Source: Rhodospirillales bacterium (GTDB lineage: Bacteria > Pseudomonadota > Alphaproteobacteria > CACIAM-22H2). Taken from it: 44,595 nt of DNA. How positions within the stretch are numbered: the first letter of the stretch is position 1; every line of letters begins with the position of its first letter. Where the stretch lies: NCBI GenBank assembly GCA_947445225.1, contig CANFCX010000007.1, forward strand, positions 1-44,595, written 5' to 3'. Shown here one piece after another: positions 8,983-13,053 of this stretch. The notes beneath the pieces were generated by a model. It saw only the letters and a program-made list of their open reading frames with translations. It was not told the DNA's origin and ran no database searches. The translations under genes and the position numbers were made by a program.

Positions 8983-9591
8983 ATGACGAACGACAACGAT
9001 TCTCCCGAGGTGTCGCCGACGGGCGCCATGGAATCGGGCCGCAAGGAATCGGGCCAATCCAAACCGTCCGGCAACCCGGAAACGGAAGCCAAGGGCGCCA
9101 TCGAGGCCGAGAATGCACGACTGAAAGATCAGTTGATGCGAACGCTGGCGGATACCGAGAACATGCGTCGCCGGCTGCAACGCGAGACCGACGACGCGAC
9201 CCGTTTCGCCGTTTCCGGATTTTCGCGGGAGCTTCTTGCCGTAGCCGACAATCTGCGCCGGGCGCTTGACAGCCTGCCGGCGGAGCTGCGCCAGCAGGAT
9301 GAGCGGATTGAAAAATTCGCCGCCGGGGTGGAACTAACCGAACGCGAGCTGATGGCGGTCTTCGAACGCCAGGGGATCCGCCGAATCGACGCCCTGGGGC
9401 GGCCGTTCGACCACAATCTCCACCAGGCGTTGTTCGAGGTGGAAACCGACCGGCCCCCCGGGACCATCATCCAAGTCCTGCAGGATGGCTACGTGCTCCA
9501 CGACCGCCTGTTGCGGCCTGCCCTTGTCGGCGTCGCCAAGACCTCCGCGGCAACGCCGCCGGCGTCGAGCCGGATCGATACCACCGTATAA
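8983..9591 (+). CDS. grpE: Nucleotide exchange factor GrpE
   Basis: GrpE releases ADP from DnaK. The 202-residue protein has an acidic, low-complexity N terminus, a long helix rich in heptads (about 40-100, including LADTENMRRRLQRE), and a C-terminal beta domain with GRPFDHNLHQALFEVE and VLQDGYVLHDRLLRPALVGVAK. AGGA lies about seven bases before the ATG. It is the second gene after hrcA. Unusually, it is separated from dnaK by an oppositely oriented cyclase gene whose stop codon is only three bases from the grpE stop. Confidence 0.96.
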   Translation: MTNDNDSPEVSPTGAMESGRKESGQSKPSGNPETEAKGAIEAENARLKDQLMRTLADTENMRRRLQRETDDATRFAVSGFSRELLAVADNLRRALDSLPAELRQQDERIEKFAAGVELTERELMAVFERQGIRRIDALGRPFDHNLHQALFEVETDRPPGTIIQVLQDGYVLHDRLLRPALVGVAKTSAATPPASSRIDTTV

Positions 9592-9594
9592 GCC

Positions 9595-10806
9595 TCAGCG
9601 GCGATCCGAGCGACTGCCTCCGTCGTCGGTCAGCCCGAAAATGTCTTGAAGTTCGGCGATGCCCCGGACCGCCACCTGTCCCAGCCGGCGGACGCTGCCG
9701 GGACATTGGGCGGCAAAAGCGGCCGATACCAGAACCGAACGATTCATCTGGTCGCAGAGCCCCTCCAACCTCGACGCCAAATTGACGGCGGGGCCGATCG
9801 TGGTGAAATCCAGCCTTTGCGGAGCGCCGACATTGCCGTACAGCACCTCCCCGACGTGAAGCGCCATGCCGTATTGCAAGGTCAGTTCGCCTTCGCTTTC
9901 TCGTCGGACATTGAGAGCGGCGATGTTTCGGCGTGCGGCATCACACGCCGCCAATGCACGCGCACAGACCTCGGCCTCCCGACCGACGGTTTTGACGGGA
10001 AAGATGGCGAGCAAACCGTCGCCCATATATTTCAGGACTTCCCCGCCCTCGGCCATGATCGGCACGACCTGGCATTCGAAATAATCGTTGAGGAGTGCTA
10101 CCAGCCGATCGCCGGGCACGACGTCGGCCAGATGGGTGAATCCGCGCAGATCGGACAGCCAGATGGCGGCATGAATGGACTCTGTCTGCCCACGCCGAAT
10201 CTGTCCGCCAAGGATGCGCTCACCGGTCGTCTTCCCCAGATAGGTGCTCAAAAGGTTTATCGCCGTCCAGTGCAGGGCATAAATTTCGGCCACCCGCGCG
10301 ATGGGTGCGAGGATGCCCTCGAAAGCGTCGATCTCGGATTGGCTGAACCCGCCCGGCTGTTGCGTCGTCCATGTGATTACCCGGATTTGCCCGTCGAGAA
10401 ATCGCAAAGGCAGGGCCACGTAATCGGTGACGCCTTCCTTCTGAAGCTCCTGCAGAATTGGAAAATCCATCGGCGATTCGGGATCCCCGATCCGACGCCG
10501 GATGGTGCCGCCGGTCAATTTGACGGCAGCCAGCGGGCTGGTCCGGTAGGTGGTCTCGTTGACGACCTCGATTGGCGCCTCGGTGACTCGTGTCTTCTTT
10601 CCGACCCGCCACAGGAACCGGCGGCCCAGAATGTCGGGGTGAAGCGTATCGATGTAGAGGGCGACGCCGTAGAGCCGTACGCCGGCGTTTAGAAGCCGCC
10701 GCCCCAGCCCGGCAACAAAAAGGCGCGGACGCGCACTATCGGCGCCGTTGATGACCCACTGGGCGACGGGTTGGAAATCGATCGTGGGACTAACGTCGGC
10801 GGCGAT
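9595..10806 (-). CDS. Class III adenylate cyclase with N-terminal sensory-like region; start codon unclear
   Basis: The C-terminal catalytic domain has metal-binding aspartates in LSDLRGFT and YMGDGLLAIF, the substrate lysine of VLKYMGDG, and LDFTTIGPAVNLASRLE with the second substrate Asp and the transition-state Asn and Arg. The Lys/Asp pair favours ATP, so cAMP production is likely. The N-terminal part contains LHPDILGRRFLWR and LDFPIL-like segments seen in related alphaproteobacterial cyclases. The conserved frame extends upstream to an in-frame stop at 10819-10821, but no ATG, GTG or TTG occurs before the TTG at 10518, which would remove about 95 conserved residues. The end given here is an ATC preceded by GGGAG and is only a guess. 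The gene converges on grpE. Confidence 0.75.
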   Translation of the reverse strand: MAADVSPTIDFQPVAQWVINGADSARPRLFVAGLGRRLLNAGVRLYGVALYIDTLHPDILGRRFLWRVGKKTRVTEAPIEVVNETTYRTSPLAAVKLTGGTIRRRIGDPESPMDFPILQELQKEGVTDYVALPLRFLDGQIRVITWTTQQPGGFSQSEIDAFEGILAPIARVAEIYALHWTAINLLSTYLGKTTGERILGGQIRRGQTESIHAAIWLSDLRGFTHLADVVPGDRLVALLNDYFECQVVPIMAEGGEVLKYMGDGLLAIFPVKTVGREAEVCARALAACDAARRNIAALNVRRESEGELTLQYGMALHVGEVLYGNVGAPQRLDFTTIGPAVNLASRLEGLCDQMNRSVLVSAAFAAQCPGSVRRLGQVAVRGIAELQDIFGLTDDGGSRSDRR

Positions 10807-10818
10807 AACGCTTCTCCC

Positions 10819-11124
10819 TCAGGGAAACCGGTGGAGTTTCGGCCCTGTCGGGCCGCCGATCAACCGCGATGGCGTTCCGGCTTGGCCCCCGCCACCCACC
10901 CAGATTGGCGCCGGTCCGCAGGAAATCCTCCACCCTGTGGCTGGCCCGCAACGCACCCGGCCATCAAGCGACAACAAACCAAGGAAAGCCAAGATCGGGG
11001 TGTTGCAGGCTCAACCCTCCATCCCTATATACTCGCCCGAATCAACGACCTATTGCAGGTCACCATGGGGATATCCGCCGGTGCTTCTTAGGGCCAGCGG
11101 ATTCCGCCGAAAGTGGGGAAGTGT
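10819..11124. other. Intergenic region between the cyclase gene and dnaK
   Basis: About 306 bases without a convincing gene. The right part holds the dnaK promoter at 11003-11031 and a roughly 90-base leader. The left part must supply any promoter of the leftward cyclase gene; I could not pick one out. Open frames here are short and lack ribosome-binding sites. Confidence 0.5.
11002..11031 (+). promoter_or_regulatory. dnaK promoter, sigma-70-like and overlapping sigma-32-like match
   Basis: TTGCAG (11003-11008) and TATATA (11026-11031) are 17 bases apart, a good housekeeping promoter. The same bases also read as a heat-shock sigma-32 site: GTTGCAG as a partial -35 and CCCTATAT (one mismatch from CCCCATNT) as -10, 14 bases apart. 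Overlapping recognition would allow basal and heat-induced transcription of dnaK-dnaJ; this is inference from consensus matching. Confidence 0.5.
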
Positions 11125-13053
11125 ATGAGTAAAGTTATCGGTATCGACCTCGGCACCACCAATTCCTGCGTGGCGGTCATGGAGGGCTCCACGCCCAAGG
11201 TCATCGCCAATGCCGAGGGCATGAACACGACGCCGTCGATCGTCGCCTTTACCGAAAGCGGCGAACGCCTCGTTGGCCAAGCGGCGAAACGGCAGGCCGT
11301 GACCAACCCCCTGCACACCGTCTATTCAGTCAAGCGTTTGGTCGGACGGCGCCACGACGACCCCTTGGTGTCCAAGGATAAGGGCCTGGTGCCCTACAAG
11401 ATCGTGCCCAGCGACAATGGCGACGCCTGGGTCGAGGTTCAGGGGAAGCGTTATTCGCCCAGCCAGATCAGCGCCTTCATCCTTCAGAAGATGAAGGAAA
11501 CCGCGGAAGCCTATCTCGGCGAGAAGGTCACGCAAGCGGTCATCACCGTCCCCGCCTATTTCAACGATTCCCAGCGCCAGGCGACAAAGGACGCCGGCAA
11601 GATCGCCGGGCTCGAGGTCCTGCGCATCATCAACGAGCCGACGGCGGCGGCGCTCGCCTACGGCCTCGAGAAAAAGAAAGCCGGGACGATCGCGGTTTAC
11701 GACCTTGGCGGCGGCACCTTCGACGTTTCGGTGCTCGAAATCGGCGACGGCGTCTTCGAGGTGAAGTCGACCAATGGCGACACTTTCCTGGGCGGCGAGG
11801 ATTTCGACAAGGAGATCATCGATTACCTGGCGATCGAATTCAAAAAAGAGAACGGCATTGATTTGCGCCAGGACCGCCTCGCCCTGCAGCGCCTGAAGGA
11901 GGCCGCGGAAAAGGCCAAGATCGAGCTGTCGAGTGCCGTGCAGACCGAAGTGAATCTGCCCTTCATAACCGCCGATCAAACCGGGCCGAAACATTTGGCC
12001 ATCAAGCTGACGCGCGCGAAGCTCGAATCTCTGGTCGACGTCTTGGTCCAGAGGACCATCGAACCTTGCCGCGCGGCGCTCAAGGATGCCGGGCTCAAAC
12101 CCTCGGAAATCGACGAGGTCGTGTTGGTCGGGGGCATGACACGCATGCCCAAGATCATCGAAACGGTGAAGCAGTTCTTCGGCCGCGAACCGCATCGCGG
12201 TGTCAATCCCGACGAAGTCGTCGCCGTGGGCGCCGGAATCCAAGGCGCCGTCTTGAAAGGCGACGTCAAGGACGTGTTGCTTCTCGACGTGACGCCGTTG
12301 TCGCTGGGCATCGAGACTTTGGGCGGCGTCTTCACACGTTTGATCGATCGCAATACCACGGTTCCGACACGCAAGAGCCAGACCTTTTCGACGGCCGAGG
12401 ACGGTCAGACGGCAGTGACCATCCGCGTCTTCCAGGGTGAGCGCGAACTCGCTGCGGACAACAAGATGCTGGGCCAGTTCGATCTCGTCGGCATTCCGCC
12501 GGCCCCCCGGGGCGTGCCGCAAGTCGAAGTCACCTTCGATATCGACGCCAATGGCATCGTTAATGTCTCGGCCAAGGACAAGGCCACGGGGCGGGAGCAG
12601 CAGGTGCGTATCGAGGCCCGCAGCGGCCTGTCCGATGACGACATCAAGCGGATGGTCAAGGAAGCCGAGAGCCATGCCGGCGAGGATAAGAAACGCCGCG
12701 AGCTGATCGAAGTCCGAAACCAGGCCGATAGCCTGATCCATTCCACCGAAAAGAACGTAAAGGAATTCGGGGACAAGGTTCAGGCCGCCGAGAAATCGGC
12801 GATCGAAAGCGAAATCGAGGCGTTGAAGAAAGCCCGTGAATCCGAGGACGTCGCGGCCATTCGAGCCAAAGTTCAGTCGTTGCAGCAGGCCTCGATGAAA
12901 CTAGGCGAAGCCATGTACAAGGCAGGCCAGGCCGGCGACGCCGCGCCCGGGGCCTCGGCCGGCACGGCGCCGGAAGGCGAGACTGGCGGGGAAAAGACCG
13001 ACAAGGTCGTGGACGCCGATTTCGAGGAAGTCGACGAACGCAAACGCAAATAG
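11125..13053 (+). CDS. dnaK: Molecular chaperone DnaK (Hsp70)
   Basis: DnaK binds exposed hydrophobic peptides in an ATP-controlled cycle with DnaJ and GrpE. The N terminus [19 protein letters not shown], the nucleotide-binding segments [13 protein letters not shown] and [16 protein letters not shown], the linker [18 protein letters not shown] and the acidic end [15 protein letters not shown] are all typical. Length is 642 residues. The ATG at 11125 starts the conserved sequence and follows GGGGAAG; an ATG four codons upstream is in frame but less well placed. dnaJ follows after 81 bases, with a strong hairpin between them that may set the DnaK to DnaJ ratio. Confidence 0.98.

Follow-up and report, generated by a model that had tools for sequence, protein, structure and literature searches.

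A conserved AUC codon as the probable start of a class III nucleotide cyclase gene in a Rhodospirillales genus

The cyclase locus and its product

The window, that is, the whole stretch of 44,595 nucleotides of Rhodospirillales DNA analysed here, contains a nucleotide cyclase gene that is convergent with grpE (8983-9591) and divergent from dnaK (start at 11125). Translation of the minus strand from 10818 to 9595 gives a single open frame, 407 codons followed by a stop, whose codon numbering is used throughout. In the stretch 10518-10821, the first ATG, GTG or TTG of this frame is the TTG at 10518. This translation agrees with the earlier note, which had described a cyclase frame without any of the three codons between the TGA at 10821-10819 and this TTG; the GGGAG that it placed at 10818-10814, ahead of GTT and ATC codons, was also verified. 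GTT is codon 4 (10809-10807) and ATC is codon 5 (10806-10804), the latter lying 7 bases past GGGAG. Runs of at least 96 codons without ATG, GTG or TTG are found in 33 of the 124 long ORFs of the source genome; since such runs are common inside genes, only the position of this one at a coding N-terminus exceeds chance. The features are collected in Table 1.

Table 1. Features of the cyclase locus, with positions in the window
Feature	Position	Strand	Evidence
Proposed cyclase coding sequence, ATC to stop, 403 residues	9595..10806	-	Open frame, orthologues, dN/dS, PF00211
Proposed AUC start, codon 5	10804..10806	-	Invariant in 3/3 genomes; Shine-Dalgarno (SD) energy -9.2 kcal/mol in all three
SD element, GGGAG plus two flanking bases, 7 bases before ATC	10814..10820	-	Invariant in 3/3 genomes; anti-SD duplex
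Rival start, invariant ACG-ATC, codons 12-13	10780..10785	-	Invariant in 3/3 genomes, without SD
TTG, first canonical start, codon 101	10516..10518	-	Without SD; would cut the GAF-like domain
In-frame TGA closing the cyclase frame upstream	10819..10821	-	Identical place in 3/3 genomes
5' leader block, 23 bases identical in three genomes	10829..10851	-	Alignment

In the window the cyclase gene ends 3 bases from the end of grpE. The gap between the two genes is about 10 bases in two genomes of the genus versus about 900 in the other one (G008), where the insert (G008:C8:13877-14788) resembles, by eye, a transposase gene. Among 26 grpE loci, in some of which dnaK lay outside the compared stretch, the cyclase gene is beside grpE only in the three genomes of the genus, and its placement in the hrcA-grpE-dnaK-dnaJ chaperone cluster is probably specific to the genus. 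In the leader, the block at 10829-10851 is kept while its flanks vary, and could be a promoter or a regulator site. A scan for sigma-70-like promoters gave no match, and no conserved RNA fold was found in the leaders of the three genomes (z-scores -0.48, -0.27 and +1.09).

In a profile search the product matches Guanylate_cyc (PF00211) with 29.9 bits, above the curated cut-off of 21.9. The catalytic domain of PDB 3r5g, CyaB of Pseudomonas, aligns with it at profile positions 208-395 (E 1.9e-18). Class III cyclases are characterized by two metal-binding Asp residues, a Lys-Thr/Asp substrate pair and an Asn-Arg pair; the catalytic motifs aligned with CyaB (sDlrgft, lKymgDg, ftTig and vNlasRle) contain the full expected set. 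On this basis the protein is probably a functional class III nucleotide cyclase, most likely an adenylate cyclase. For the N-terminal domain no solved structure was matched at E 0.001. GAF_2 (PF13185) matches residues 110-175 with 16.3 bits, below its cut-off of 28.6, and one paralogue scores 18.1 bits with PF01590 against a cut-off of 22.4; because these matches are under the curated cut-offs, we call the domain only GAF-like. Since the GAF_2 match covers positions 69-133 of the 136 in the profile, roughly the first half of the domain would be lost if translation began at codon 101. An AlphaFold model of the cyclase was discarded (mean pLDDT 32). The 2.6 Mb source genome contains 15 cyclase-domain matches, a rich cyclic-nucleotide system for its size.

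Coding evidence and conservation of the start region

Each of the other two genomes of the genus, G008 and G009, has an orthologue (92-93% identical), and the start region was compared among these and the source genome (G000, a draft assembly), all three apparently metagenome-assembled. Purifying selection is strong over codons 14-100, as it is over the remainder of the gene: dN/dS for the three genome pairs is 0.14, 0.11 and 0.09 in this part and 0.12, 0.10 and 0.12 in codons 101-407, while the shifted frames of codons 14-100 give values of 1.4-5.5. Codons 6-12 show no visible constraint (pooled dN/dS 1.73).

ORFs were also compared by how strongly the part before their first canonical start looks coding, with a hexamer score whose training set was other ORFs. 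The cyclase frame ranks first both among 1,079 ORFs in 300 kb and among 2,484 ORFs in 700,058 bases (27% of the source genome). In the larger census, its margin over the best competing frame is 12.1; the next ORF has 7.9, and the remainder of that ORF scores negative. An ordinary TTG start accounts for the runner-up of the 300-kb census (C1:519-1857). The known positive infC ranked fourth of 1,079 in the smaller census and was absent from the best 22 of 2,484 in the larger one; the census is therefore weak for short N-termini, and we use it only to rank the cyclase.

Aligning the N-terminus with homologues, as the earlier note had suggested, showed that the orthologues keep the ATC and the SD element. 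TGA, GGGAG and ATC occur with equal spacing in all three genomes. All three lack ATG, GTG and TTG throughout codons 1-42, the earliest in G008 being a TTG at codon 43. The GTT that the earlier note had named alongside ATC is not conserved, being replaced by GCT in G009, and was rejected as a start. ATC at codon 5 is the sole near-cognate codon at SD distance that is invariant in the three genomes. In a wider reading of the cyclase N-terminus, comprising 29 loci (L004-L008, L024 and L030 were left out), all 26 non-orthologous loci have a canonical start no later than position 13, and six paralogues have an ATG at positions 9-12. The order-wide genome search covered the same 23 genomes as the family-wide one.

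SD energies were computed with the standard anti-SD sequence, the host's own 16S not having been found in the source genome; on this measure the site before the ATC has the same energy in all three genomes as the infC site, and 3.15% of 4000 random ATC sites match or beat it. The gene has both features looked for in genes with non-canonical starts, namely a near-cognate codon conserved at the proper distance from an SD element and a coding N-terminus that is devoid of ATG, GTG and TTG.

The infC gene itself serves as an internal control. At the source-genome locus (L060, G000:C1:172010-172652, minus strand) the part preceding the IF3 domain contains no ATG, GTG or TTG, and AAGGAG is followed after eight bases by ATC. 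The infC set comprised 22 loci, one of which was not located by the motif used; in the 21 readable loci the aligned start is ATC in 16 and ATA in 5, and six of the 21 also have an ATG 4-6 codons downstream. By this alignment, non-AUG infC starts are conserved across the family. A dprA-like frame (L144, G000:C11:28652-29782, minus strand) also has no canonical start ahead of its conserved residues. Its counterpart in G009 (L146) has an ATG at that place and an in-frame TAG further on. It was rejected as a second conserved start-less gene since the ATG in G009 is what one would expect if the start had been lost or misread in a single genome.

Choice among possible starts

Taken together, the conservation of the codon, its ribosome-binding site, the purifying selection on the N-terminus and the infC control support the AUC start, and we consider it probable that the cyclase is translated from AUC at 10806-10804 as a protein of 403 residues, probably under restraint by IF3. 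Among the options that the earlier note had listed, these lines of evidence strengthen the rare ATC start, whereas the orthologues contradict both a decaying gene and a base error or frameshift close to the start.

A start at the ACG or the ATC of codons 12-13 would still be non-canonical and would make codons 6-12 part of the leader. Both codons are invariant, constraint is clear only from codon 14 on, and the paralogue ATGs align to just this region; however, in none of the three genomes does an SD element precede either codon (-0.5 to +0.7 kcal/mol), and 31 bases would separate codon 13 from the invariant GGGAG, so that we regard this start as unlikely. Initiation at the TTG at 10518, giving a protein of 307 residues with the upstream frame not translated with it, is very unlikely. 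In its favour, this TTG is the earliest canonical codon of the source-genome frame, all three genomes keep it, and the catalytic domain would remain complete, but the selection on codons 14-100 equals that on the rest of the gene, SD energies before the TTG are -1.5, +1.0 and +0.7 kcal/mol, the GAF-like domain would be cut, and the paralogues possess an N-terminus ahead of this position. The CTG at codon 38 is also invariant; it was rejected since codons 14-37 alone are already under purifying selection (pooled dN/dS 0.09), and it is outside the eight best SD sites.

Translation might instead begin above the TGA or in another frame and reach the cyclase frame through a frameshift or stop readthrough. 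Each genome taken singly does have canonical codons above the TGA; yet the leader of G008 contains a one-base indel, G009 has no shifted-frame start before nt 52, and the three genomes share no upstream start that leads into the cyclase frame in the same way, which makes such an arrangement highly improbable. A base error, or decay of a gene that has lost its start, is the explanation to which we give the least credence: the source assembly is a draft, and its dprA looks like a case of a lost or misread start, but the two other genomes have the same start region, and the whole cyclase frame is under strong selection with no internal stops.

Possible control by IF3 and comparison with known systems

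If the AUC codon is the start, a plausible mechanism would be as follows. An AUC located 7 bases past a good SD element would pair imperfectly with the initiator tRNA, making initiation inefficient, and IF3 should discriminate against it on the cyclase mRNA. Cyclase levels would then stay low; a drop of IF3 relative to 30S subunits would raise them in parallel with IF3, the gene for which likewise has an ATC start. Actual use of the AUC, low expression, control by IF3 and cyclase activity are inferences, the one on IF3 being drawn by analogy with the precedents below. The conservation of so odd a start in the relatives suggests that production is low on purpose, through the fidelity check to which IF3 itself is subject. 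It is a tentative proposal, less probable than not, that the start ties cAMP synthesis to translation initiation, IF3 and the cyclase being made together when free IF3 is low. If this were true, a second messenger would report initiation fidelity or ribosome supply, from a gene within a chaperone cluster.

A conserved AUC start in a cyclase gene would add a new class of target and a testable link between IF3 and cAMP. In addition, gene callers limited to ATG, GTG and TTG would shorten the protein by about one quarter, from 403 to 307 residues. The phenomenon appears to be of a known kind, that of the non-canonical starts of infC and sigR, while for the gene class and the codon no precedent was found: our search, mostly of open-licence literature, returned no cyclase with an AUC start. 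Non-canonical starts with experimental support are few outside infC; the authors of the sigR article state that very few have been characterised (PMC5472188). A survey of 36 genome groups with 61,358 ancestral AUG starts reports two changes to CUG and one to AUU, and AUC is unmentioned in that passage (PMC5622118). In Listeria, changing the rsbW start to ATA or ATT reduced translation (PMC13068326).

The closest comparison is with infC, which starts with ATC in Streptomyces but with ATT in E. coli (PMC5472188) and is autoregulated by IF3. The cyclase gene shares with infC an SD element followed by ATC, with equal predicted SD energy in the source genome; in contrast to infC, it encodes a signalling enzyme rather than an initiation factor, and its regulation by IF3 is our prediction. 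In Streptomyces sigR, the GTC start is repressed through IF3, and a canonical start makes expression constitutive (PMC5472188). Both sigR and the cyclase gene are regulatory, and both combine a conserved non-canonical start with the lack of any usable canonical codon close by. The cyclase gene differs from sigR in having a proposed AUC rather than a GUC start and in encoding a signalling enzyme rather than a sigma factor. A further likeness is to E. coli cya, whose weak start codon limits production of the cyclase; Reddy is said to have found in 1985 that replacing its UUG start raises expression. E. coli CyaA is a class I cyclase, however, and UUG is a canonical alternative start, whereas the present gene encodes a putative class III enzyme and probably starts with AUC.
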